A stretch of 64,000 nt of DNA, from positions 1 through 64,000 of the forward strand of contig NZ_JAMPKJ010000017.1 in assembly GCF_039962115.1 (NCBI RefSeq), written 5' to 3'. Below, piece after piece: positions 12,170-54,487 of this stretch (within the stretch, counting starts at the first letter, position 1; the number at the start of each line of letters is the position of its first letter). Below the pieces are notes generated by a model. It saw only the letters and a program-made list of their open reading frames with translations, did not search any database and was not told the DNA's origin. The stretch is from Funiculus sociatus GB2-C1 (lineage in GTDB: Bacteria > Cyanobacteriota > Cyanobacteriia > Cyanobacteriales > FACHB-T130). A program made the position numbers and the translations under genes.

Positions 12170-14677
12170 TTAATTTTTATTGGCTTTTTGCCAATCTTGA
12201 ATTATTTTTTCTGACCAGAGCCAGTTTTTACTAAGCGCCTCTGGTTGAAAATTAACGGGATCGTCTGTCATCACCTTTTGGCGAAGTTTTTTAGACTCGT
12301 CCAAAAGTTTTGTCCGCTTATCATCTGGCTGAGTTTTCGCCAATTCCTTCAGTCCCAGTGCTAAGCCAGCATAGGTAGTCAAGGTGTTTTGATTGGGCTT
12401 GTTTTCTCCAGTTAAATATAAAGCATCAAACAAAACCTCATTAGCACGCTTGAAATTGCCTTCAGCATAGTAAGCGAAACCCAAAGCATTGAGGTAGGCG
12501 ATAGATTTGGGTTGTTTTTTGACAGCTACCTCCCAAAAACGACGGGCATCATCTAGACTGTAATCCTTGTTGCCAGTTTGAATAGATTGCCACGCCAAAC
12601 GACCTCTCAAGAAACTAATTGCAGCGTCATCAATTTGCTGGCGAGAAACAGTATCTAGCGCTCCTTTGGCTTGCTGCAATGCTCCTCGGTTGAGCAATTC
12701 TTCTACAGCAGGAACTGCGGCGGCTAAGTTATTTTGACCGAACTGTTCAATTGCGGCAACTGTGACTGTGGAGGTGTTGGCTGTTTTCAAATCAACAGCT
12801 TTGAGATTTGAACTGGGTAGCTGGGTAACTGGCAAAGAGCTTCTTTGGGATTCTAAAAGTTCTCCAGGCTGGGGCGAGCGACTTTGGAAGAACCAGTATC
12901 CTAAAAGCGCGATCGCTACCGCCGATCCTAACGCCCCCAACACCACTGGAACGACCTTAACCCGTTGTCTCCCGCCCTCACCACGTCTCCAGAAGGGCGT
13001 TGGTGGCCTTATGGCACCAGAATATCCTAGTAGCGATGTCTCCGACACCGAATTCTTAGTAGGGGCTGACTGGGCAGTAGGGGCAGGCTGATTGGAGACT
13101 GGGGGCTGAGGGCTGGGGATTGGGGGTTGGGACACAGAGGGATGGAAAACTACATTGTCTCCCCCGCTCTGAGTCTCCCCAGCTGGCGTTCCCGGTTCAG
13201 GGTTGAGCTGGCGCAGCAAATCCGCGACTAGGGCGATGTCGTCCTCGTCGCCAGCATCGTCATATAGATCGTCAACCGGATCTGCCCAGTCTGGTTCGTC
13301 ATACTCATCGTATAAATCATCATCCTTGGGCGGTAGATTTGAATTGTTGTCGGGAGTTAGGGAACCGGATCTAGACACAGGCGGGGCAACAAATGTAGCT
13401 TCTTCTTCCCCGGTGAGTGTACCAAGAATTCCCGCCCAAGGAAGGTCTGTACCAGCAGCGTCAGTCAACTGGAGGCGTTCGGCTCCCGCATTCATGGCGT
13501 GATGGGCTGGTGTCAAGTAACCGTCAAATTCCGGGTGCAGATAAAGGATGGGTAAAGCCCAGTAAAGCTGGCGAGAACCATAAGTAGATATTAAATTCTG
13601 CCGCGCTCGACTCAAGCTCAGGTCTATGGGATAACCTTGATTCAAATTGCTGTAAAACCGGCGCGCCAGCGTCAAAGCTACCCGATCCGGAATCCGTTCT
13701 GCCATCGCCAGCACGCTCTTGATTCCGCGCTTAACCAAAGCGTCTGCCAGGTTTCGCTCTGCTGCGCCATCGCCGGAATTTGACATTGCGGTATGAGCGC
13801 CGCGACAAGAGTTAAATACTGCCAGTTGAACGCCGTTATTTACCAGCAACCCAGCTAGGTCATCACCGCTTAAAGTCTCCGTTAAGCCAGTTTTGCGACT
13901 AACCAGGTAGAGAGCGCCGCCATCTGCGCCTTGGTCGCTATGCCCTGCATAGTGGAAAACTTGATACTGACCTTGTTCTAGTTCGTGCGTCAGTTGTTCT
14001 GAGCCTGGTTGATCCAAAACAGTGAGCTGAATTTCTGGCAAGCCATTATGAGAGCGTTTACTGAGTTCTGCTTGCAGATGGCTTGCTTCTTGTTTGAGAT
14101 CCAAACTTTCCTGGTCAGTCGGGGCAGCGATCGCCATTAATATTTTTATTGGTTGATTTGCCTGGGAAGCTCCTGATAAGGCGGCACCTCTCAACCTGCT
14201 ATTCACCTGATAACGGGAAAAGGCGACATCTGTGCCTGTTGCCAATGGGCGCTCGCCATCGTGCAGGACTTCCCAAGGTAGGCTGAGTAAGCGGGGGTCT
14301 TTGAGTCCCAGCCGCAACCGCAGCACTTCTTGTCGATGTTGCGCGATCGCTTGGGCAATCATCCAACTATCTCGCAGCGTACCTTGAAACAACGCCTCGT
14401 AAAGCTGCTGACCCAACGCCACCAGGTTTAGAGAAGATTGATGTGCCTGTGTGTTGTTCGATGCCGATCGAGAAGTGTCGCCTGGAGACAAAACCATCAA
14501 CAACGGGTCATTCATCAAGTGCTTGGCATCGGCCAACCACCCCTCCACCTGCCACGTCACTTGCTCCTCGGCCAATGGCACAGCACCGGGTGTACCAACA
14601 CATTCTGTCCGCACCCAATATTTATTTTCCCCTAAGGGATTTACAGAGATGTGAAATTCCTGAGCCACTGCTACCAT
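12170..14677 (-). CDS. CHAT-domain protein with TM segment and TPR-like C-terminus
   Basis: The 835-residue protein begins with a CHAT (caspase HetF associated with TPRs) domain. The catalytic His is in FHYAGHSDQG (about residue 243) and the Cys in AVFNSCRGAH (about 290), so the peptidase dyad is intact. A long acidic, Pro-rich linker follows (about 400-560). A single membrane helix lies near 580-598 (VVLGALGSAVAIALLGYWF), and helical TPR-like repeats reach the C-terminus. CHAT proteases in other bacteria act in cell differentiation or in defence, cleaving specific partners. The substrate here is unknown. A G/C heptamer-type segment lies in the linker near 13080-13130. Confidence 0.85.
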   Translation of the reverse strand: MVAVAQEFHISVNPLGENKYWVRTECVGTPGAVPLAEEQVTWQVEGWLADAKHLMNDPLLMVLSPGDTSRSASNNTQAHQSSLNLVALGQQLYEALFQGTLRDSWMIAQAIAQHRQEVLRLRLGLKDPRLLSLPWEVLHDGERPLATGTDVAFSRYQVNSRLRGAALSGASQANQPIKILMAIAAPTDQESLDLKQEASHLQAELSKRSHNGLPEIQLTVLDQPGSEQLTHELEQGQYQVFHYAGHSDQGADGGALYLVSRKTGLTETLSGDDLAGLLVNNGVQLAVFNSCRGAHTAMSNSGDGAAERNLADALVKRGIKSVLAMAERIPDRVALTLARRFYSNLNQGYPIDLSLSRARQNLISTYGSRQLYWALPILYLHPEFDGYLTPAHHAMNAGAERLQLTDAAGTDLPWAGILGTLTGEEEATFVAPPVSRSGSLTPDNNSNLPPKDDDLYDEYDEPDWADPVDDLYDDAGDEDDIALVADLLRQLNPEPGTPAGETQSGGDNVVFHPSVSQPPIPSPQPPVSNQPAPTAQSAPTKNSVSETSLLGYSGAIRPPTPFWRRGEGGRQRVKVVPVVLGALGSAVAIALLGYWFFQSRSPQPGELLESQRSSLPVTQLPSSNLKAVDLKTANTSTVTVAAIEQFGQNNLAAAVPAVEELLNRGALQQAKGALDTVSRQQIDDAAISFLRGRLAWQSIQTGNKDYSLDDARRFWEVAVKKQPKSIAYLNALGFAYYAEGNFKRANEVLFDALYLTGENKPNQNTLTTYAGLALGLKELAKTQPDDKRTKLLDESKKLRQKVMTDDPVNFQPEALSKNWLWSEKIIQDWQKANKN

Positions 14678-20121: not shown

Positions 20122-22527
20122 TTATAGAGAATTAAGTTTTTCAATCGCCGCAATCGGCAATAATAAAGTATCTTCAATATGCGATCGCACGGCGGGTGTC
20201 ACTTCACAATCGCTATTTAAGCAATCTACAAGCAACTTATTGGCATCGTAGTATTGCCTCAACAAGTGCTTCTGCTGATTGCTGAACTGCCAATCGTAAC
20301 TGGCATTATTATGTTCCACGATCGCGGCTGATAATAGCTCAGTCCAAGTTTGTCCCTGCGCTTGCCACCATGTCTTAAATCTTTGTAAACCTTTATCTGG
20401 ATTAGGTAATTCAGCTTTGAGTTGTTGCAGGCTGCGCCGTAACTCGCGAGCGCGATCGCTATCCAAAGCCAGAGCAAAATCTATCGCACAATCTAGAACG
20501 CGATTAATCGCCCGATCCAGCGCATCAGTATTATTCAAACCAGAAGCATCGCGATTCAGAAAAAAGTCTAAGGCATAAGCAAAGTCATCATCCATCCCAA
20601 CGTCACCGTCAATAGCTTGAGCAAGACAAAGGTAAAGCGGTAAGGGAAAGAAAGGAACGGTAGGAAAAGAAAAGCTAACAGGGCCAATGCTCAGGGTAGA
20701 AGCCAGAGAATGGTCAAAGGCGCAAGCAAGCGAAAAGTAAAATGCTCGAATAGCCGCAGGTTGCTGGATATATTCGACTGAAAGAGTTTTCTTATTGATA
20801 CATCTGAGTAATTCCTGTACCTTTTCATCAGAAGCTGCGATCGCATCTATTTTTTGCTTCATCAATTGCAGCAAATGGTCAGCACTACGTAACATTCCCG
20901 TTGCCAGCAAAAACACTTCCCGCCAACGTTTTTCGCCAACATGATTAACCAAATGTTCCAAAGCTTGTGGATTAGAACTGGCAACAAATTGTCTCGCAGT
21001 CAAATACTCTTGAAAAGTTAAATGAGAAAACGAGTAAATTTGCCGCGCCCTTTCTACCAATAAACCATATTGAGACTCAATAGATTTCAGCACCGCTTCA
21101 CTATCCAGGCGCAATGTTTCCGGATCGGACTGGGAATCGGGTAAAGTTCTCAAATAGTCTGCAATCAGTTGCTGGATTTTATTTTGTTCAAAAAAGTAAT
21201 AACCTTGCTCAAAAGTGATAGCTGCAACCTGAGTCAGCAGCTTAATCTTGTGTGGCAAAGACAAATTTCGATAAACTTCATTTCGTTTAATGCCTTTAGC
21301 TTCATCTCGTTTAACAAGGAGAATATCTAATCCTTGCTCGTATAGATTAGAGCGTTTCGAGGGAAATTCTCCTTTCATCGCAAAAACTAAACAAGTCAAA
21401 TTTAGTAAAATTGGCGTGACTGCTAGTTCTCGAATTTGTTTATTTTCTGGCCGCTTCAGCTTTTCTAGAAACCGATTTGCCGTAGCTAAACCTTCTGGGG
21501 GTGAACTTCTACCAACTTCTACAAACCACTTTTTTGAAAACGACTCAATCTGCTCTGGATTCAAGTCTGCAATTTCTACTTCTGTGAATCCCGGCAATCG
21601 AGGAAACTGGGCAGCAATTCGACAAGAGATAATTAGCTGATTCTTGTAATACTTTTGGGAAAATCTGCGAATTTGTTTCAGAACTTCTTCGCTATTTGGG
21701 TGCTGAACTTCATCCAAACCATCTAGCAAAATTAAAGCTTTACCTTGCAAAAGCAAAGTTTCCACAATAGCCTCCGAAACTCCGCAGCTACCAAGTTCTT
21801 GGCTAATGTAGTTTACTAAACTGAAACTGCCTTCATCGCTGGCATCCTCAGCAAAATTTTTTAGCCTAATAAAAATTGGTATTCGGTATTCTTGAAACTC
21901 GCCTTTATTACACTGAATAGCTACATATTTCAGAAATGTGGTTTTACCGGAACCCGGTTTACCCAGCACCATCAGCTTAGGATAACTTTCTACTGCCTCA
22001 AGCCCTAAAACTCTTGCTTGACGCACCCGACTCAAGCCAAAACGATCGAACTCGTCTGCATCTGGGTTGAACCCTTGCACCAAGTCCGAAATCTCCAACC
22101 AACGTTGGCTGGTGATCTCCTCTAGAATATTGACATCGATATAAATATTGTCTACGCCAACCCGTCGCGCAATATCCAACAGGCGCAGCGTACCGCACTG
22201 TTCTTGAATTTTGTCTCGGTAGAGCGATCGCACCTGCTCCACCAAAGTATCAATCTCCCAGCCATTGTTGCGAACATTCTCTATTTGCTCAGCTCCTTCA
22301 CCTTTGATTGGATTGGCAATCTCTTCCCAATTGAGATCCAGCTGAAAGCAAAGTTCGATAAAGATCCGACGCTCCACAGGTTTGCCTGCCAAAAATCTCC
22401 CCACTGGCTGGCGAGTTCTTAACCCAACCTCAACAGCCAAATCTTCTTGCGTCCAGCCCTTGCGGGCAAAGGCTTGCCTTACGTGTTTGAGAGCTTGTGA
22501 AGAAACTTGAATAGAGCGTTTAGCCAT
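20122..22527 (-). CDS. NACHT NTPase with N-terminal helix-turn-helix
   Basis: The 801-residue protein is a STAND-type NTPase. Residues 1-70 look like an XRE-like helix-turn-helix (ARKGWTQEDLAVEVGLRTRQPVGRFL). The NACHT domain has Walker A VLGKPGSGKTTFLKYVA at about residue 190 and Walker B ALILLDGLDEV at about 268, with the usual LIISCRIA sensor strand and a winged-helix-like region after it. The C-terminal third is helical with acidic, alanine-rich repeats, and the end (DWQFSNQQKHLLRQYY ...) resembles the C-terminal helical domain of cyanobacterial NACHT proteins. Some bacterial NACHT proteins protect against phage, but whether this one does is not known. It is monocistronic with AT-rich flanks. 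Confidence 0.85.
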   Translation of the reverse strand: MAKRSIQVSSQALKHVRQAFARKGWTQEDLAVEVGLRTRQPVGRFLAGKPVERRIFIELCFQLDLNWEEIANPIKGEGAEQIENVRNNGWEIDTLVEQVRSLYRDKIQEQCGTLRLLDIARRVGVDNIYIDVNILEEITSQRWLEISDLVQGFNPDADEFDRFGLSRVRQARVLGLEAVESYPKLMVLGKPGSGKTTFLKYVAIQCNKGEFQEYRIPIFIRLKNFAEDASDEGSFSLVNYISQELGSCGVSEAIVETLLLQGKALILLDGLDEVQHPNSEEVLKQIRRFSQKYYKNQLIISCRIAAQFPRLPGFTEVEIADLNPEQIESFSKKWFVEVGRSSPPEGLATANRFLEKLKRPENKQIRELAVTPILLNLTCLVFAMKGEFPSKRSNLYEQGLDILLVKRDEAKGIKRNEVYRNLSLPHKIKLLTQVAAITFEQGYYFFEQNKIQQLIADYLRTLPDSQSDPETLRLDSEAVLKSIESQYGLLVERARQIYSFSHLTFQEYLTARQFVASSNPQALEHLVNHVGEKRWREVFLLATGMLRSADHLLQLMKQKIDAIAASDEKVQELLRCINKKTLSVEYIQQPAAIRAFYFSLACAFDHSLASTLSIGPVSFSFPTVPFFPLPLYLCLAQAIDGDVGMDDDFAYALDFFLNRDASGLNNTDALDRAINRVLDCAIDFALALDSDRARELRRSLQQLKAELPNPDKGLQRFKTWWQAQGQTWTELLSAAIVEHNNASYDWQFSNQQKHLLRQYYDANKLLVDCLNSDCEVTPAVRSHIEDTLLLPIAAIEKLNSL

Positions 22528-31926: not shown

Positions 31927-34362
31927 TTATTTTTTGCAATTCTCTAAGCTGTTAGCTTTCGGTGGGGGATAGTTCACAGGTACAAAAATGTAACTATCAG
32001 TTGAGCAATTAGCTCGAACTACTTTAACCAAAGTAGAAATAGGCTCATTGCGATCGCCACCTCGAAAACTAATCGTCCCTGTAGCTCCTTGGGCTTTAAA
32101 GTTTTTGTCTGCTAAGGCTTGTTGCAAACTAACACGGCTCGGTGATGATTGTTTTTCTAAAGCTATTATCAGCGCACGAGTAGCATCATAAGCCGTAGCT
32201 GTGCGCCAACTTACATCACCTTTCCATAAATTCCTAGCCGCTTGAGGAAATTCTGGGTTTTCATTGCTTTCTAAATGATGCCATGTTACAACCACCACAA
32301 AGCGGTCTAAAGCATCTTTTCCTAACAGCAGTAAAGTATCAGGACTGTAGAGGGTATTACCTCCAACTATCCAAGAACTACCTTGATTAGCTTTGATCAA
32401 CCTTAAAGTATTGGGAATAGCAAAAGTAGTGGTTCCACCATCGGGAAATACACCCAACGCTGTAACTCCTTCCTTGCGTACTTGAGCGATCGCAGCACCC
32501 GCATTAAACAGAGGGTTAGATAGATCAAATTCCTTCACAACTTTGCCGCCACTAGCTTTAAAGCTAATAAGAAATTGCTCTCGTAGAGAACGGCTAAAAT
32601 TACTCCCAGGAGCGTAAAAAACGGCTGTTTGTTGGTCACGAGATTGAGCTAGTAAGTAGCTTGCTAAATATTGGGCAGCCACTCGCGTATTCGGTATAGT
32701 ACGAAAGAAAACGTGATTGGGAATATCGCCCCAGCGTGAAAGTTCTTCTGATGTGCTACCAGGGGAAATTACTACCAATTTATATTCTTGATAAACAGGC
32801 ACAGCTGCCAGCGTCACTTCACTTGCATAATGACCGACAACTGCTAGAATATCCCCTCTTTTCACCAGTTTATTGGCAACTTCGTGAGCTTGTTTAGGGT
32901 TATTTGCATCATCGGCAATTAACACTTTAAGACCAATACCATTAATCTTTTTTCCCTGATTTATTTCATTTTGGGATTGGGCGACTCCTCGCATCATCTC
33001 CATTGCTGTGTCTGAACTCTTGCCTATGGGAGCAACAACCGCAATAGTGTAAGCTTTTTGGTTTCCAAGTTGGGCATTATTCAGATAAATCAAAGTTTCA
33101 GGATCGCTTGGTTGTTCTTCCCGTGCCTTTTTTAATAAGCTGACAGCTTCAGCATACTTACCCTCTTTGATTTTTTGCACTCCCTGTTGTTTAAACGATA
33201 CTTCAGAATCGGGAACTAAAACTTCTTCTCCACAACTTAAATTGTCCCCGATAATTTTATCGCAAGCCTTGGGTCGGTTTATTAAATAAATTATTGCTGG
33301 TATTACCGACAGTAAAATTGCACCAGATAAAATTGCCAGTGTAAGTTTTTTGTTTCGCGGTTTAAAAAGCGTTGTAGTTTCCTCATTTATATTATTACTG
33401 CTAGGAGGAATTAGGGGCTTTCGGGAAGGTTGCATAAGCTGAAAGCTGCTACTGGTTCGTTTCTCAATTTGTTTTAACCGTTGCAAAATTTCGTGTGAAT
33501 TTCTCGGACGCTTTGTTGAGTATGGAGGTAAGGGAGCCATCATGTCATCAATCAAATCTGCTAAGTTTGGCAAAACTTGTGGCGCTTTGTTTCGCCAAAT
33601 TAAGCGGCCCGTCTCGCTGTCTTCAGGCAGCAAATCGGGAGATATCCCTGTGACCAAATGAACAAAAGTTCGCCCCAAAGCATAAAAATCAGATGCACGA
33701 ACAGCTCTGCCATTTACTTGTTCTGGAGGCGTGTAACCACGGGAAATAATTACTGTGCAGCCTTTTCCTTGTAAGTTATGCAAGTAGGTTTCTGTAGCTT
33801 CTCGTACTGCACCAAAATCAATCAAGACCAATTGATTGTCAGGTTGCAGCATAATATTAGACGGCTTAATATCTCGATGAAAATAATTGTGTTGATGTAT
33901 CTTGTTTAAGATTTCTGTTATTTGTTTTAACCAGTCGCAAGCTTGCGGTTGGGTGATGGGTTTGTTGTTTTGATTCAACCAGTCTCTCAAATTGCTTCCT
34001 TCAATTTTCTCCATTACCAGACAATGCAATGGCTTGTTGCTATTTACAATATCAATTTTGAAGTATCCATCTGACTCGACTCTGGGAATACCTTGATAAT
34101 TCAGCTGCTTTAGTACCTCTGCTTCCCGCTGAAATAGGCAGATTGCCTTATCGCAATCAATGTGCAAAACTTTCAGGACTTTTCGCGTACCTCCGCGACA
34201 CGTATCCTCCACCTCAAAGGTGTGAGCAAAGCCTCCTTTGTCCAGACGTTTAATTACTCGATACCGTCCTGTAACTAAGATTTCTGTCCCACAGCTAGGA
34301 CAAGCGAGTTGATTCGCAGGATTATCGAAATGAAGGCAGGTGGGATTGATGCAATAACTCAC
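31927..34362 (-). CDS. Ser/Thr kinase fused to an extracytoplasmic ligand-binding domain
   Basis: The 811-residue protein begins with a zinc ribbon (C4, C9, C21, C24), then a full Ser/Thr kinase domain: glycine loop LDKGGFAHTF, catalytic loop FHRDIKPSNIML and LIDFGAVRE. One membrane helix (LAILSGAILLSVIPAIIYLI) separates it from a TPR-like segment (GKYAEAVSLLKKAREEQPS) and a periplasmic-binding domain of the branched-chain amino acid/amide receptor type (Peripla_BP_6). The protein is thus a receptor kinase: ligand outside, kinase inside. The zinc ribbon and kinase resemble those of the kinase at 48315, and the outer part resembles the protein at 49794. No permease gene is nearby. Confidence 0.9.
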   Translation of the reverse strand: MSYCINPTCLHFDNPANQLACPSCGTEILVTGRYRVIKRLDKGGFAHTFEVEDTCRGGTRKVLKVLHIDCDKAICLFQREAEVLKQLNYQGIPRVESDGYFKIDIVNSNKPLHCLVMEKIEGSNLRDWLNQNNKPITQPQACDWLKQITEILNKIHQHNYFHRDIKPSNIMLQPDNQLVLIDFGAVREATETYLHNLQGKGCTVIISRGYTPPEQVNGRAVRASDFYALGRTFVHLVTGISPDLLPEDSETGRLIWRNKAPQVLPNLADLIDDMMAPLPPYSTKRPRNSHEILQRLKQIEKRTSSSFQLMQPSRKPLIPPSSNNINEETTTLFKPRNKKLTLAILSGAILLSVIPAIIYLINRPKACDKIIGDNLSCGEEVLVPDSEVSFKQQGVQKIKEGKYAEAVSLLKKAREEQPSDPETLIYLNNAQLGNQKAYTIAVVAPIGKSSDTAMEMMRGVAQSQNEINQGKKINGIGLKVLIADDANNPKQAHEVANKLVKRGDILAVVGHYASEVTLAAVPVYQEYKLVVISPGSTSEELSRWGDIPNHVFFRTIPNTRVAAQYLASYLLAQSRDQQTAVFYAPGSNFSRSLREQFLISFKASGGKVVKEFDLSNPLFNAGAAIAQVRKEGVTALGVFPDGGTTTFAIPNTLRLIKANQGSSWIVGGNTLYSPDTLLLLGKDALDRFVVVVTWHHLESNENPEFPQAARNLWKGDVSWRTATAYDATRALIIALEKQSSPSRVSLQQALADKNFKAQGATGTISFRGGDRNEPISTLVKVVRANCSTDSYIFVPVNYPPPKANSLENCKK

Positions 34363-34890
34363 GACGAATACACCATCCCGATTAAAGTGGGAATGTTATA
34401 GTATTATAGTTGCTGGCGCAAAGTAAGTTAATTTCTTAAATAATCGTTTAATTAAAGTTCCTTATAACATACTTTTCCCAACTGATGGAAGTGTGAAAAT
34501 AGCTCCGTTGCTTTCAGGAGAGCTTTTAGCTCAGGGAATAACGTCCTAATGGTTGGATGGCTGAGCTTATGTTGGTGGAAAATTATAGTTAAAAATTATC
34601 CTTTACTTGAGATATTGAATTCGTCTGACAATAATTTTGTCCTAAATATTTGCCAAGCTTCTGTATGATTTAGATTGGTCTAAGAGGAAAGGACGAACCT
34701 GTATATCTCCCTACACTATTGCAAAAATCCCAGCGATCGCATTCTTAATGAAGGTTGTAGTAGATGCTCCCTCGCTGGCGCTCCATCCCTCTATACTAAC
34801 TACTACCCAGTGGTTACTAAGGCGCGATCGCGTAAGCTAAAATTAGCGCGATCGCGCTAATCTAATGACAATCGAAGAGCATCAGTTCCT
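34363..34890. other. Intergenic region with HIP1 sites
   Basis: This spacer between the divergent kinase and moaD genes holds a cluster of GCGATCGC-type sites (34733, 34823 and 34850 area), a TAGTAGATGCTCCC repeat word near 34762 and no gene. Confidence 0.45.
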
Positions 34891-48314: not shown

Positions 48315-49769
48315 ATGGAAATTTATTGCACCCGTCCAGGCTGCCCCCGACCCCAAAACTTTTTTTCCGAGCTCGATAACAACACTATTCTCAAGACGGT
48401 GCAACAAAAGTATTGCACTACTTGTGGAATGCCCCTAATTTTAGATGGGCGCTATGTGCCAACAAAGCTGTTGGGGCGTGGGGGATTTGGGGCGGCGTTT
48501 CTCGCACGCGATCGCCGCACTCCTGGTATGCGCTACTGCGTAGTAAAACAGTTTCAACCTGTGGGCGACTTAAACCCAGAACAGCTACAAATCGCCCAAA
48601 ATTTATTTGAACGGGAAGGAGAAGTTTTAGAAGACTTGGGCAGGCACCAGCAAATTCCAGACTTGTTTGCTTTCTTTGAAATAATACTGCCCAGTATGCA
48701 AACGGGAAAACAAGATCAGTTTTTCTATCTGGTACAGGAATTTATCGATGGACAAAACTTGGAGGAGGAACTAGCGGCTAAGGGACAGTTCTCACAAGCC
48801 GAGGTGTTGCAACTGTTGCAGGAAATCCTCCCGGTGCTGAAGTTTGTCCATGACAATAACTCGATCCACCGAGATATTAAGCTTTCTAACATCATGCGTC
48901 GTAAAGACGGTTTGATTTATCTGTTAGATTTTGGTGCCGTCAAGCAGGTGACGAAGGGAACGACTGGTGGATCGTCAACTGGGATTTATTCGATGGGATT
49001 CGCGCCACCAGAGCAAATGAGTAGGGGACAAATCTACCCGTCAACAGATTTGTATGCTTTGGCTGTGACTTGCATTACCTTGGTGACTGGCAAGCAGCCA
49101 AACGAGCTATTTGATACTTTCAACAACCAGTGGAACTGGAGAAGTCAGGCAAAAGTAAGCGATCGCTTTGCCGAAATCCTCGACCGAATGCTCTTGCCTG
49201 CACCTAATCAACGCTTTCAGTCCGCCCAGGAAGTTCTCAGCGCCATCAACGCCATCAACCAAACAACGCCACCGCCGCAACCAGTAGCACCCACTCAGGT
49301 TCCTTCGACCCGCCCAGTAGCGCCAGCAGCGCCTGTTAGCCTCCCAACACCCGCACCGACTCAACCGCCAGCCCCCGTCCCACTTCCCTCTAAAGCGAGA
49401 TTTTCTCTAATAGAAATCTTGGCAGGGGCAGCTTTCACTGGGTTTGAGGGTGGCTTACTGTTGATAGCCTTGAGCAGTCTTTTGCCATCACCAGGGATTA
49501 GCATTGGATTATTGGGGATGGTTATCGGAGGTCTGATTTTTGCCCAATATCGCCGCCTAATTGAAGGCAAGGATTTGCCAATTATTGCTGGCATTACCCT
49601 GCTAGTTGTGATGTTCCTCCCCGGCGTGAAAACGTTGATTGCCAGCTTGATACCTGGAAATCCTGCGATCGCGGGTGTATTATTTGTGGCGATTGTAGCT
49701 GCGGCGGGCGCGATCGCAATTACAGCCCTGTTTCGCCTCATCTACAAATTGCTTTCTAGTATATTTTAA
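48315..49769 (+). CDS. Zinc-ribbon Ser/Thr protein kinase with C-terminal membrane helices
   Basis: The 484-residue protein opens with a zinc ribbon (C5, C10, C34, C37). The kinase domain (about 48-310) has the glycine loop LGRGGFGAAF, the VVKQF lysine, the catalytic loop IHRDIKLSNIMRR and LLDFGAVKQ. A Pro-rich linker (about 315-360) leads to three hydrophobic helices. Unlike the kinase at 31927 it has no outer ligand-binding domain. The next four genes encode membrane-tethered binding proteins on the same strand with short gaps (24, 54, 29 and 66 bases), which suggests an operon in which they supply ligand sensing. Substrates are unknown. Confidence 0.9.
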   Translation: MEIYCTRPGCPRPQNFFSELDNNTILKTVQQKYCTTCGMPLILDGRYVPTKLLGRGGFGAAFLARDRRTPGMRYCVVKQFQPVGDLNPEQLQIAQNLFEREGEVLEDLGRHQQIPDLFAFFEIILPSMQTGKQDQFFYLVQEFIDGQNLEEELAAKGQFSQAEVLQLLQEILPVLKFVHDNNSIHRDIKLSNIMRRKDGLIYLLDFGAVKQVTKGTTGGSSTGIYSMGFAPPEQMSRGQIYPSTDLYALAVTCITLVTGKQPNELFDTFNNQWNWRSQAKVSDRFAEILDRMLLPAPNQRFQSAQEVLSAINAINQTTPPPQPVAPTQVPSTRPVAPAAPVSLPTPAPTQPPAPVPLPSKARFSLIEILAGAAFTGFEGGLLLIALSSLLPSPGISIGLLGMVIGGLIFAQYRRLIEGKDLPIIAGITLLVVMFLPGVKTLIASLIPGNPAIAGVLFVAIVAAAGAIAITALFRLIYKLLSSIF

Positions 49770-49793: not shown

Positions 49794-51224
49794 ATGTCTC
49801 ACAAAAATGAAACTGCGGTTCTAGTAACATCTTTATTTATCACTGCTATCTTCATAGCAGCTGTTGCTTGGTGGGTTACAAAACCGCAAGACAAACCTCC
49901 GGGTGTACCAACATCCCCAAATGGCCCGGTAGATACAACCCCAGAAAATCCGCTCAACTCTATCAGTTTTGGGGAAAAAATTTTAGTGGCAGAGGAGGTT
50001 AGAGGTGGGAGTCCTGCCTTCAAAACTTTAAAACAAGCGGGAGTAAATGACATTGCAGCCGGAAAATATAATGAAGCAGTTTCCCAACTATCAGCAGCAC
50101 TAAGGGAAAACCGTAACGCTCCCGAAACGTTAATTTATTTAAACAATGCCCGAATTAATCTTAATCAGCAAAAATCTTACACGATTGCCGTAGCCGTACC
50201 GATTGGCAGTGACCCGAATGGTTCTTTAGAGGTATTGCGCGGGGTGGCTCTTGCCCAAAATGAAATTAATCAGGCTGGGGGAATTAACGGGGTACTGCTA
50301 AAAGTAGCGATCGCCAACGACAATAATCAAGAAGAACAAGCAAAAAAAATTGCCAGCGCCTTAGTTGACAATAAAGACGTTTTAGGAGTTGTCGGTCATT
50401 GGGCAAGTCAAGTTACTTTAGCAGTGGCTCCCATCTACGACTCTAAACTTGTTGCGATTTCCCCTATCAGTACCGCCGTTAGTCTTTCCGGCAAAAGTCT
50501 CTATATTTTTCGCACCGTCCCCAGCGATTATATGGCGGCTAGGGCGTTAGCGGATTATATGCTTACCAAATTGCAACGGAGAAAGGTAGCTGTTTTCTTT
50601 AATTCCAAAAGTACCTATAGTCAGTCCCTCAAGTCTGAGTTTGTCACGGCTGTTGGACTGGCAGGCGGGCAGGTGAAAAATGAGTATGACCTATCTGATT
50701 CTGCTTTTAGTGCTGCTGGGAGTGTAGAACAGGCAATTGAGCAAGGGGCAGAGGTGCTCATGTTAGCCTCAAACACGGGTGAACTAGACAAGGCACTTCA
50801 GGTAGTTCAGGTAAACCGGAAACGGTTAAGTATGCTGGCAGGAGATGATGTTTACGCGATCAAAACTTTGGAAATTGGTGCAGATGCGGCACTAGGAATG
50901 GTGGTGGCTGTTCCCTGGGACATTGACGGCGACCCAACTTCAGCCTTTCCCCGCCAAGCCAGAGAGCTTTTTGGATCTGATGTGAACTGGCGTACCGCCC
51001 TCGCCTATGATGCTGCAAAGGCTTTGATTGCGGCGATCCAGCGCAACCCCACCCGAACCGGGGTGCAACAAGCGCTCGCATCATCAGACTTTACGACAAA
51101 GGGAGCCTCTGGCACAATTGGTTTTTTGCCGTCAGGCGATCGCAATGGGACAATTCAACTGGTGAAAATCGTTGCCGATAAGCGCTCACCAACTACCTAT
51201 GACTTTGTACCAGTACCTCGATGA
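49794..51224 (+). CDS. Membrane-tethered amide/amino-acid-type binding protein
   Basis: The 476-residue protein starts MSHKNETAVLVTSLFITAIF, an N-terminal membrane anchor. A short TPR-like pair follows (ITAGKYNEAVSQLSAAL type, residues about 75-110), then a periplasmic-binding domain of the Peripla_BP_6 type (YTIAVAVPIG ... AQNEINQAGGINGV). The order TPR-like plus binding domain matches the outer half of the kinase at 31927 (FKQQGVQKIKEGKYAEAVS...). No cleavable lipobox is seen. It lies 24 bases after the kinase gene. Confidence 0.88.
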   Translation: MSHKNETAVLVTSLFITAIFIAAVAWWVTKPQDKPPGVPTSPNGPVDTTPENPLNSISFGEKILVAEEVRGGSPAFKTLKQAGVNDIAAGKYNEAVSQLSAALRENRNAPETLIYLNNARINLNQQKSYTIAVAVPIGSDPNGSLEVLRGVALAQNEINQAGGINGVLLKVAIANDNNQEEQAKKIASALVDNKDVLGVVGHWASQVTLAVAPIYDSKLVAISPISTAVSLSGKSLYIFRTVPSDYMAARALADYMLTKLQRRKVAVFFNSKSTYSQSLKSEFVTAVGLAGGQVKNEYDLSDSAFSAAGSVEQAIEQGAEVLMLASNTGELDKALQVVQVNRKRLSMLAGDDVYAIKTLEIGADAALGMVVAVPWDIDGDPTSAFPRQARELFGSDVNWRTALAYDAAKALIAAIQRNPTRTGVQQALASSDFTTKGASGTIGFLPSGDRNGTIQLVKIVADKRSPTTYDFVPVPR

Positions 51225-51278: not shown

Positions 51279-52313
51279 ATGTCGCAGAAAAACGAAACGA
51301 CAGTTCTAGTCTTAGCCCTCCTGATAACGGCTGGGTTGTTAGGCGGCGGGTTCTGGTGGTTTACCAATCGGTCTGGTGTAAATTTGGGTGGTAAGCCCAT
51401 TAATGCAACCAACCAATCTGCACAATCTACAGTTGAAACTTTTGCTCAGGTTCAAGGCGTTCCATCGGGACTATTTAGTTACGGTGGTAGCACAACTTGG
51501 GCCCCAATTCGTAAAGAAGTAGACTGGGGAATCCAAACTGTTTGGCCTAAGTTTGTCCTGCGCTACACCGATCCTACCAGCGGTGCGCCTGGATCTGGTG
51601 CTGGCATCAAAATGCTATTAAATAATCAGCTCGCCTTTGCACAATCTTCGCGCTCAATTAAAGATGAAGAATATCAGCAGGCACAACAACGGGGTTTTAC
51701 TCTCAAAGAAATACCCGTAGCGATTGATGGAATTGCGATCGCAGTGAATCCAAATCTCAACATCCCCGGTCTTACCATCGCCCAACTCAAAGACATTTAC
51801 ACAGGCAAAATAACCAACTGGCAGGAAGTCGGTGGTTCTAATCTTTCCATTAAACCTTACTCTCGTCGCATTGAAGAAGGAGGCACAATCGAATTCTTTG
51901 CAGAAAACGTCTTACAAGGACAGAACTTTGGTGCCAACGTTCAGTTTATCGGCACGACAACCGAAGCCTTGAGAGAAGTAGCAACTAATCCAGGCAGCAT
52001 CTACTACGCCTCAGCGCCGGAAGTAGTCGGTCAGTGTACCGTTAAACCCCTGCCGCTTGGTCGAACATCCGATCAACTGGTTCCTCCCTATCAAGAGCCT
52101 TTCGTACCCCTTGAACAATGCCCAACTCAGCGCAACGGCTTAAACTCCAGTGCCTTTCAAAGCGGTAAATACCCAATTACTCGCAATTTATTTGTCATTG
52201 TTAAACTAAATGGTCAACCAGACCAACAGGCAGGAGAAGCATACGCCAATTTATTGCTTACACAGCAAGGTCAACAACTGCTGGAAGAAGCTGGATTTGT
52301 CAGAATCCGCTGA
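51279..52313 (+). CDS. Membrane-tethered PstS-like binding protein, copy 1
   Basis: The 344-residue protein begins MSQKNETTVLVLALLITAGL, a membrane anchor nearly identical to those of its neighbours. A polar stretch follows, then a phosphate-binding (PstS/SphX-type) domain with YGGSTTWAPIRKEV, FAQSSRSIKDEEY and IYTGKITNWQEVGG. Two cysteines flank a conserved loop (QCTVKPLPLG and EQCPTQRN). No pstCAB genes are near, so I favour a sensory role with the kinase. Confidence 0.88.
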   Translation: MSQKNETTVLVLALLITAGLLGGGFWWFTNRSGVNLGGKPINATNQSAQSTVETFAQVQGVPSGLFSYGGSTTWAPIRKEVDWGIQTVWPKFVLRYTDPTSGAPGSGAGIKMLLNNQLAFAQSSRSIKDEEYQQAQQRGFTLKEIPVAIDGIAIAVNPNLNIPGLTIAQLKDIYTGKITNWQEVGGSNLSIKPYSRRIEEGGTIEFFAENVLQGQNFGANVQFIGTTTEALREVATNPGSIYYASAPEVVGQCTVKPLPLGRTSDQLVPPYQEPFVPLEQCPTQRNGLNSSAFQSGKYPITRNLFVIVKLNGQPDQQAGEAYANLLLTQQGQQLLEEAGFVRIR

Positions 52314-52342
52314 AACCATTTTTTTACCACTGCAATCTACCC

Positions 52343-53329
52343 ATGTCGCAAAAGAACGAAACACTGCTTCTACTTTTAACCCTCCTGATAACAGCTGGGT
52401 TATTAGGTGGCGGGTTCTTGTGGTTTACCAATCGGTCAAGCGTTGAATTGACTGGGAGGCGCATTAATGCAACCAATCAATCTGCACAATCCACATCTGA
52501 AACTTTTGGCTCTGTTCAAGGCGTTCCATCGGGACTAATTAGTTACGGTGGCAGCACTACTTGGGTACCTATCCGCAAAGATGTAGATTCAGCCATTCAA
52601 AGAACATGGCCTAAGTTCCAGTTGCGCTACACCAACCCCAGCAAGGGTGCCCCTAACTCTGAGACAGGTATTCGGATGTTATTAGAAAATCAACTGGACT
52701 TTGCTCAGTCTTCAGTTCCTATTCCAAACAAATATTATCAGCAAGCGCAACAACGTGGTATTAGCCTTAAAGAGATAGCAGTCGCGATCGATGCTCTGGC
52801 AGTTGTTGTCAACCCTAGCTTAAACATCCCAGGTCTGACTGTAGAGCAGGTAGATAAAATTTACGAAGGCAAGATTATTAACTGGAATCAAGTCGGTGGC
52901 CCCAACCTTAAAATTAAGCCTTACAGTAAAGCCCAGCAAAAAGCCGATTCTCATATTGAATTTACGGCGACTACGACCGAGGCTCTACGCGGGGTAGCTA
53001 GAAATCCCGGAGGTATTTTCTACGCTTCAGCACCGCTACTGGTAACGCAGTGTAATGTTAAGCCGTTGCCGTTGGGCCGTAATGCTAATCAGCTGGTTTC
53101 CCCTTACAAAGAGCCATTGGTTCCTCTGTCTGAGTGTCCTGCTAAACGCAACCAACTGAATATTGATGCTTTCAAGAGCGGTCAATATCCGAATACTCGG
53201 CGGTTGTTTGTTATTGTCAAACAGAATGGTCAACTCGACGAGCAGGCAGGTGAAGCTTATGCCAAACTATTGCTGACAGCTCAAGGACAAAAATTGATCG
53301 CAAAAGCTGGATTTGTCAGAATCCGCTAA
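52343..53329 (+). CDS. Membrane-tethered PstS-like binding protein, copy 2
   Basis: The 328-residue protein is a close paralogue of copy 1, with the same anchor (MSQKNETLLLLLTLLITAGL) and the same cysteine pair. After IKPYS it jumps directly to IEFTATTTEALRG and lacks about 16 residues present in the other two copies. That segment lies in the second lobe, near the cleft in related proteins, so ligand preference may be altered. It begins 29 bases after copy 1. Confidence 0.87.
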   Translation: MSQKNETLLLLLTLLITAGLLGGGFLWFTNRSSVELTGRRINATNQSAQSTSETFGSVQGVPSGLISYGGSTTWVPIRKDVDSAIQRTWPKFQLRYTNPSKGAPNSETGIRMLLENQLDFAQSSVPIPNKYYQQAQQRGISLKEIAVAIDALAVVVNPSLNIPGLTVEQVDKIYEGKIINWNQVGGPNLKIKPYSKAQQKADSHIEFTATTTEALRGVARNPGGIFYASAPLLVTQCNVKPLPLGRNANQLVSPYKEPLVPLSECPAKRNQLNIDAFKSGQYPNTRRLFVIVKQNGQLDEQAGEAYAKLLLTAQGQKLIAKAGFVRIR

Positions 53330-53395
53330 CGCAGATTTTGAAGAGGATATCAATACAAAGCACCATACGCCAATAGTTAATTTAAAAATCAGCTC

Positions 53396-54487
53396 ATGTC
53401 TCAGAAAAACGAAACACCTGTTCTGATATTGGCTCTTTTGATTACATCTGCATTATTAGGCGGCGGCTTCTGGTGGTTTACCAAACGCTCTGGCGTTGAC
53501 GTGGGTAACTTGTCCAAACCCACCCCATCGGCAAGTCAACCCGCGCAACCCGATAATTCTGCCTCCAGTCCCCCAGTCAATCAAACCAATCAAACAGCAC
53601 AATCGGCGGGTGAAGGCTTTGCCCAAGTGCAAAATGTCCCCACTGGGCTATTTAGCTATGGTGGTAGCACCTCGTTTGCACCGATTCGCCTTTCAGTAGA
53701 CTCAGCTATACAAGCGGCGCGACCTGAGTTTAAATTGCGCTATGTTAATCCAACCAGTAGTTCCGCCGGATCTGGTACGGGCATCAAGATGTTAATAGAT
53801 GGGAAACTTGATTTTGCCCAATCCTCCCGACCAATTCTTTCACAGGAATATCAACAAGCACAGCAACGCGGTTTTGGTCTGAAAGAATTTGCCATTGCCA
53901 TTGATGGATTAGCAGTAGCTGTTAACCCAAATCTCGATATTCCAGGTTTGACTTTAGACCAGTTGAAATCTATCTACACTGGCAAGATTACCAACTGGCA
54001 AGAACTGGGTGGCCCGAATGTGGCAATAAAACCCTATACCCGCCCAAACCAGGGCGGCACAGTGGAACTATTTATCGAAGAAGTTTTGGCCAATGAAAAG
54101 TTTGGTACAAATGTTGAGTTTGTCCCTGACACTACTACCGCACTACGAAAACTCGCTGCTAACACTGGCGGAATTTATTTTGCTTCTGCGCCAGAGGTAG
54201 TGCCGCAGTGTAGCATTAAACCTTTGCCACTGGGCAGTAAAGCGGGTGAATTTGTGACACCCTATCAACAGCCTTTGGTATCTCCTCAAGAGTGTCCCGA
54301 TAAACGCAATCAGCTCAATATTGCGGCTTTCCAAAACGGGCAATACCCGATTACTCGAAAGCTGTTTGTCGTAGTTAAACAGAATGGTCAGCGAGAGCAA
54401 CAAGCTGGAGAAGCTTATTCTAACTTTTTACAGACGCAGAAGGGTCAGGAACTGATTAGCGACATTGGATTTGTCCGCATCCGCTAA
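53396..54487 (+). CDS. Membrane-tethered PstS-like binding protein, copy 3
   Basis: The 363-residue protein has the shared anchor (MSQKNETPVLILALLITSAL), a longer Pro/Ser/Asn/Gln-rich linker (about residues 42-75) and the complete PstS-like domain (SYGGSTSFAPIRLSV, FAQSSRPILSQEY, IYTGKITNWQELGG). The cysteine pair is kept (PQCSIKPLPLG, PQECPDKRN). It is the last gene of the cluster. Confidence 0.88.
   Translation: MSQKNETPVLILALLITSALLGGGFWWFTKRSGVDVGNLSKPTPSASQPAQPDNSASSPPVNQTNQTAQSAGEGFAQVQNVPTGLFSYGGSTSFAPIRLSVDSAIQAARPEFKLRYVNPTSSSAGSGTGIKMLIDGKLDFAQSSRPILSQEYQQAQQRGFGLKEFAIAIDGLAVAVNPNLDIPGLTLDQLKSIYTGKITNWQELGGPNVAIKPYTRPNQGGTVELFIEEVLANEKFGTNVEFVPDTTTALRKLAANTGGIYFASAPEVVPQCSIKPLPLGSKAGEFVTPYQQPLVSPQECPDKRNQLNIAAFQNGQYPITRKLFVVVKQNGQREQQAGEAYSNFLQTQKGQELISDIGFVRIR

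Follow-up and report, generated by a model that had tools for sequence, protein, structure and literature searches.

The gene at positions 31,927–34,362 of the 64,000-nucleotide stretch of the Funiculus sociatus GB2-C1 genome analyzed here (the window) probably encodes a one-chain, single-pass receptor serine/threonine kinase for a small molecule. We show from sequence the parts of this putative receptor, their order and predicted topology, its kinship, and its neighbors. Its outer portion is a module composed of a transmembrane (TM) helix, a tetratricopeptide repeat (TPR)-like stalk, and a Venus-flytrap (VFT) domain. As judged by profiles and motifs, this module is joined in cyanobacteria to several kinase lineages, CHAT proteases, orthocaspases, and two kinds of AAA/STAND-like ATPase. 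The larger result is the same outer clamp with different inner switches, constituting a little-noticed cyanobacterial family that includes cell-death-type proteases. The features of the fused gene and of two split-type neighbors discussed below are as follows.

31,927–34,362, minus strand: fused receptor kinase gene, an 811-amino acid ORF with a GTG start
34,282–34,356, minus strand: 4-Cys prefix (zinc-ribbon-like), amino acids 3–27 (NF045510, 29.7 bits, cut-off 24)
33,589–34,263, minus strand: Hanks-type protein kinase domain, amino acids 34–258 (Pfam) or 18–300 (family profile)
33,280–33,351, minus strand: single TM helix, amino acids 338–361 in the model and 343–361 by hydropathy
33,067–33,198, minus strand: TPR-like stalk of three helices in the model, amino acids 389–432
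31,969–33,057, minus strand: VFT/Peripla_BP_6 outer domain, amino acids 436–798
48,315–49,769, plus strand: split-type 4-Cys kinase with a hydrophobic C-terminus, belonging to a different kinase subfamily
49,794–51,224, plus strand: split-type TPR-VFT protein with an N-terminal membrane anchor (amino acids 7–25)

From the N- to the C-terminus, the fused protein consists of the 4-Cys prefix, the Pkinase domain, a weakly predicted linker, the TM helix, the stalk helices, and Peripla_BP_6. Profile, hydropathy, and model evidence agree on this architecture, which had been proposed in an earlier, sequence-only reading with correct coordinates and the strand left unstated. The kinase domain matches Pkinase (PF00069) at 94.1 bits (cut-off 31.7) and retains the catalytic Lys, HRD, and DFG motifs, which together with the NF045510 match identify a 4-Cys prefix Hanks kinase. 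Peripla_BP_6 is matched over amino acids 441–771 (130.6 bits, cut-off 31.7), and this match and the VFT fold of the model identify a type-I solute-binding fold of the Leu/Ile/Val-binding kind. The only hydrophobic segment is that at amino acids 343–361, and the stalk region of the family profile matches consensus TPR chains. The name ‘bifunctional serine/threonine-protein kinase/ABC transporter substrate-binding protein’ is presumably one that NCBI uses in annotation. Identity as a PASTA kinase (PknB/Stk1) was considered and rejected, as NF033483 scored 121.4 bits against a cut-off of 450 and a PASTA match was absent in the Pfam search. The ORF is intact both in GB2-C1 and in Trichocoleus sp. 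FACHB-40 (locus L050, 96.9% identical over 11.2 kb), and a dN/dS of 0.25 between the two indicates that the gene is under purifying selection.

The AlphaFold model of the fused protein has a mean pLDDT of 85.4 and a pTM of 0.60, with a pLDDT of 56–64 in the TM helix; the individual domains are thus trustworthy, but their mutual placement across the membrane is not. The VFT superimposes on the leucine-binding protein 4n0q_B (VIA-align Z 40.8, rmsd 2.3, 339 residues aligned). It resembles leucine- and GABA-binding proteins, with mGluR ectodomains lower in the list of structural matches. Foldseek matches of the kinase region are led by PknB.

In a sample of 292 genomes from the phylum, 76 contain the module at E ≤ 1e-40. 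Thinning of 214 modules left 165 distinct ones: 52 kinase fusions, 32 split forms with a kinase adjoining, 52 solo forms, 8 CHAT, 3 caspase, 3 caspase-NACHT, 12 AAAg ATPase, and 3 AAA_35 fusions. Because the choice of loci favored long ORFs, these class counts are not frequencies, and the solo class includes loci whose upstream flank is too short to show a kinase. L017 and the second ORFs of L162 and L198 were dropped for covering fewer than 300 profile positions. Nine non-kinase fusions were run against Pfam (L129, L168, L185, L176, L177, L170, L165, L167, and L184), and the others were classed by eye and motif. Pfam recognized CHAT in L129, L168, and L185; Peptidase_C14 in L176, L177, and L170, the last also having nSTAND1 and WD40; and AAA_35 in L167 and L184. 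The AAA_22 and nSTAND2 scores of L165 fell just below their cut-offs, and the designation AAAg hence rests also on a GQRRIGKS motif (12 of 14 ORFs). All eight CHAT and all six caspase ORFs have the His and Cys motifs. Other variations on the module include a 934-amino acid ORF with two tandem VFT modules (L166, 7013–9814) and ORFs with internal VFT gaps that adjoin a full copy (L162, 6755–9115, and L198, 6369–8162). GB2-C1 itself has a third VFT-module protein (L005, 343–1986; G000:C118), which has a short Cys-rich N-terminus and a TM segment without a kinase and is followed by a gene for what reads by eye as a VWA-like membrane protein.

A TM segment lies no more than 90 amino acids before the module in 47 of the 52 kinase fusions, the remaining five having none near the module. 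The same holds for 8/8 CHAT, 12/12 AAAg, 3/3 AAA_35, and 3/3 caspase fusions, but for only one of the three caspase-NACHT rows. In the other two of these (L170 and L172), the sole predicted TM segment is far from the VFT; that of L170 seems to precede the WD40 part, which would place the β-propeller outside the membrane. Among the 47 kinase fusions with a TM segment, the positive-inside rule fits 35, is even in five, and is reversed in seven. A simple check of the kinase motifs was passed by 43 of 50 fused kinases, including the one described here. The kinase of L035 (1213–3630) lacks HRD and DFG and may be a pseudokinase. A model of the CHAT fusion L129 (pLDDT 83.3, pTM 0.55) has a caspase-like fold, a TM helix at 370–389, stalk helices at 434–477, and a VFT at 482–829, and this fusion is thereby predicted to have the same order of parts as the fused kinase receptor.

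The sequence-only reading regarded the gene as a fused version of the two separate neighbors at 48,315 and 49,794. The resemblance of the outer half to the protein at 49,794 is sound: the shared wording (YTIAV..PIG and LIYLNNA) is found in both, and the identity is 42.8% over 435 amino acids (E 1e-98). That of the inner half to the kinase at 48,315 was overstated (32% identity, E 9e-38, 119.1 bits). Thirteen other kinases of the same genome score higher, the best being C26 (L003; 287.6 bits, 50% identity), the C-terminal half of which reads by eye as WD40 repeats. The fused kinase and that at 48,315 are no more alike than any other pair from this large kinase family.

Trees, proposed in the same reading as a check on whether fused and split forms are sisters, separate both halves from the split pair, the outcome which that reading had itself set down as refuting it. 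In the kinase tree (108 rows; short L057, L126, L142, and L154 and the copies L002/L017 left out), the fused kinase falls in a clade of 32 or 33 rows (starred branch, 96) comprising 19 fused and 13 or 14 background kinases. The kinase at 48,315 belongs to a separate 30-row clade (starred, 100) of 26 split, three fused, and one duplicate row. In the VFT tree (138 rows, including 25 of ~52 solo rows and excluding L166 with its two VFTs), the fused VFT lies in a 48-row clade (starred, 95) of 42 kinase fusions, three CHAT, two solo, and one caspase. The VFT at 49,794 lies in a 20-row set (starred, 95) of 16 split, three fused, and one solo. For groups picked after the trees were known, AU tests rejected forcing the fused kinase with the 48,315 clade (p 0.006) and the fused VFT with the 49,794 clade (p 9e-6). 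Descent of this gene from a fusion of its two neighbors is therefore barely credible, despite the common domain order, the 43% identity of the outer halves, and the existence of just such fusions elsewhere: both halves sit in different clades from their supposed sources, and 13 closer kinases exist in the same genome, on which grounds we rejected this origin.

Those fusions, L028, L031, and L193, each carry a 48,315-type kinase and a 49,794-type VFT in one chain and group with the split forms in both trees, marking them by sequence as true fusions of the split pair. Of the 292 genomes, 74 carry a 48,315-type kinase, and in at least 28 of these a VFT-module match lies no more than 3 kb from it. 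These fusions, this proximity, and the repeated joining of kinases to the module support the idea that this kinase type and VFT type work together. Hence the argument that fusion betrays cooperating partners survives as a general link between kinase and VFT and fails for the particular pair in the window.

Joining has happened repeatedly. A single origin of the kinase-VFT fusions was rejected, since forcing all fused kinases into one clade gave an AU p of 2.4e-9; different kinases thus joined the TM-TPR-VFT module more than once. The fused label requires 12 changes on the kinase tree, seven of them forced by starred branches, with gains and losses counted alike. In the VFT tree, the CHAT fusion L090 and the kinase fusion L092 are sisters (starred, 98), which argues that one inner part replaced another while the outer part was conserved.

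The fused kinase's clade has a characteristic neighbor. An NB-ARC STAND gene occurs within 2.6 kb upstream in 11 of the 20 clade loci (L057, assigned by judgement, together with the 19 fused rows from the kinase tree) and in none of 31 kinase fusions outside the clade that have 400 nt or more of upstream sequence (Fisher 3.5e-6, the loci not being independent). The upstream gene of L021 matches NB-ARC at 37.5 bits (cut-off 23.5). The gene is further off in L057 (709 nt) and L070 (2211 nt), and the L023 and L025 loci end inside it. In four further clade loci, including that of the fused gene, the STAND search gave faint matches of 6.5–9.4 bits, as compared to ≤0.2 bits in other fusions, and the match was absent in five of the 20. 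Outside the clade, STAND matches occur 9.7 kb from the split locus L218 and, at a weak level, downstream of L060. The faint match in the window is located as follows.

34,448–34,682, minus strand: faint relic of an NB-ARC/STAND gene, comprising two pieces that are collinear but lie in different frames (8.5 and 3.1 bits)

One tblastn piece spans 34,679–34,620, and the pieces stop 86 nt short of the start codon of the fused gene. None of 400 shuffled controls reached 8 bits (maximum 2.8), while a distant stretch of the window scored 5.4 bits. We infer that the STAND gene has decayed in GB2-C1, leaving this faint relic. Being gone from the window and missing in five of 20 clade loci, the STAND gene is not obligatory. 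Elsewhere in the window, the first ~86 residues of a NACHT-NCH2 protein (20,122–22,527, minus strand) resemble the N-terminal domain found in the STAND partner family at 35.9 bits, a score that reflects a true shared domain. The window also encodes an 835-amino acid CHAT-domain protein (12,170–14,677, minus strand; 111 bits).

Other classes have neighbors of their own. Clustering places a DUF1822-type gene, the family being named from the neighbor of L174, upstream of all eight CHAT ORFs. A 243-amino acid gene with no Pfam match lies upstream of the CHAT fusion in L168 (1963–2691) and recurs at CHAT fusions in 8/8 by clustering and in 5/8 by direct profile-free search. Another AAA ATPase is upstream in 11 of the 12 AAAg rows. 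Upstream of the 32 split loci, a LysR-like gene recurs in 21 and an NnrU-like gene in 17 (names by eye), suggesting that the split pair has long occupied a stable position. In the window, the gene at 49,794 is followed by three tandem PBP_like_2 (PstS-like) proteins (51,279–54,487) that have the same N-terminal anchor wording as the protein at 49,794 (MSQKNET/MSHKNET), the middle one of which (52,343–53,329) has no aligned counterpart in the sister stretch L226.

The binding pocket of the fused VFT differs from that of the split one. We take the positions that bind an α-amino acid to be the equivalents of Ser 79, Thr 102, aromatic 150, and acidic 226 (LivJ/Atu2422), and we read these from an alignment with Atu2422 and other solved proteins. 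The split VFT has S, T, Y, and D at these positions, which predicts an α-amino acid ligand. The fused VFT has S, T, F, and N, and its Phe and Asn at the 150 and 226 equivalents depart from the α-amino acid-binding set. Asp occupies the 226 equivalent in 30 of 32 split rows versus 21 of 52 kinase-fused rows, with Trp in 16 of the latter. These differences suggest that the fused receptors probably sense other molecules, and that the ligand of the fused VFT is likely to differ from that of the VFT at 49,794. Two features of the outer domain are of note in the comparison with Trichocoleus (L050).

32,356–32,358, minus strand: codon of N669 at the acidic position that binds the α-amino group, Ser in L050 and Asp in the split VFT
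32,200–32,799, minus strand: divergent segment, amino acids ~522–721, in which 68 of 600 nt (11%) differ from L050

Over the rest of the compared stretch, 263 of 10,581 nt differ. Between the same two genomes, the ligand domain of the split VFT shows no such peak (2.0–3.0% per 300 nt), its highest divergence (7.7%) being at the N-terminal linker. The dS relative to L050 is 0.19 in the outer half, 0.10 in the kinase half, and 0.0065–0.09 in six flanking genes. As dS is raised too, we do not claim positive selection on the outer domain; recombination is as likely an explanation of its divergence as selection.

In the receptor mechanism we favor, a small periplasmic molecule would close the VFT, and closure would be transmitted via the stalk and TM helix, perhaps by rearrangement of a dimer, to activate or silence the kinase. 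For this kinase clade, the ancestral target or partner may have been the NB-ARC STAND ATPase encoded just upstream; because that gene appears to have decayed in GB2-C1, the receptor would now have to use another substrate. The whole family might, as we tentatively propose, pass an outside small-molecule signal to interchangeable effectors (Ser/Thr kinase, CHAT, orthocaspase, AAA/STAND), with partner genes adjoining and fast-diversifying outer domains, and so be the outward-looking counterpart of cytoplasmic NLR-like conflict proteins.

A role as a defense or self-killing switch, with the kinase and STAND protein acting in phage defense or programmed death and the VFT responding to a molecule linked to damage or phage, is unlikely. 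The NB-ARC STAND partner speaks for it, as does the joining of the module to CHAT, caspase, and AAA/STAND-like domains. The best PADLOC model of the kinase half is PD-T4-6 (406.6 bits), but 35 PADLOC models match this kinase, as expected of general kinases, which makes the label weak. PADLOC gave no match for the CHAT, L165, L167, STAND-partner, and DUF1822-type neighbor proteins and only a marginal one (18 bits) for the AAA partner. Furthermore, the receptor is under purifying selection even though the STAND gene is lost here. Control of transport, in which the VFT would go on delivering solute to an ABC importer whose uptake the kinase adjusts, is quite improbable. It would account for a VFT that belongs to the branched-chain amino acid transporter class, but the VFT is tethered to a kinase, no Liv permease was recognized by eye among the listed neighbor clusters, and the one ABC-ATPase-like cluster (11 loci) is spread over five classes. 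We consider the single-chain receptor kinase the best explanation.

To our knowledge, the triggers of bacterial Ser/Thr kinases, CHAT proteases, and orthocaspases are mostly unknown. A common outer module whose binding fold is well understood provides a single soluble handle on what triggers every one of these effectors. A functional precedent for the putative receptor is GlnH-GlnX-PknG of Actinobacteria (PMC6069109, which describes what stimulates bacterial kinases as an outstanding question). In that system, extracellular amino acids are sensed by a solute-binding protein that controls an intracellular Ser/Thr kinase, with participation of a TPR domain. However, that system has three proteins, with GlnH a lipoprotein and GlnX the membrane link, whereas the present one is a single chain. 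Invertebrate Venus kinase receptors (PMC2680970), for which the amino acid L-arginine is an activator, are a further functional parallel, having an outer VFT, one TM helix, and an inner kinase in a single chain, as in our model. Their kinase is an insulin-receptor-like tyrosine kinase, unlike that of the fused protein (Pkinase 94.1 bits versus PK_Tyr_Ser-Thr 63.8), and their order is reversed relative to the N-terminal kinase and C-terminal VFT seen here. We regard this architecture as a parallel that carries no evidence of common descent.

The family is already known in part, from single caspase-receptor cases and from the C-type lectin (CLec)-based sensor-effector proteins of cyanobacteria. 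Our literature searches, to which subscription journals were mostly closed, found no description of the VFT family as a whole. A Nostoc punctiforme metacaspase with an ANF-receptor domain is a single case of a caspase with an outer periplasmic-binding domain (PMC2853523), and the caspase, TM, and PBP instances of conflict System 4 (PMC7159879) likewise join a caspase to such a domain. These are reported as isolated additions, and the relevant passages of both sources mention neither the kinase, CHAT, and ATPase versions nor the common TPR-VFT module. Cyanobacterial Ser/Thr kinases with added domains (PMC2176072) are similarly Hanks kinases with C-terminal additions, including WD40. That source gives 14 added-domain types, and its text does not contain the words periplasmic, ligand, binding protein, or ABC transporter. 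In the portions of PMC7517822 that concern them, cyanobacterial targets of diversity-generating retroelements also combine a common C-terminal ligand-binding module with an N-terminal Ser/Thr kinase, orthocaspase, CHAT, or other domain, but their sensor is a CLec domain diversified by retroelements, whereas the sensor here is a VFT behind a TM helix.
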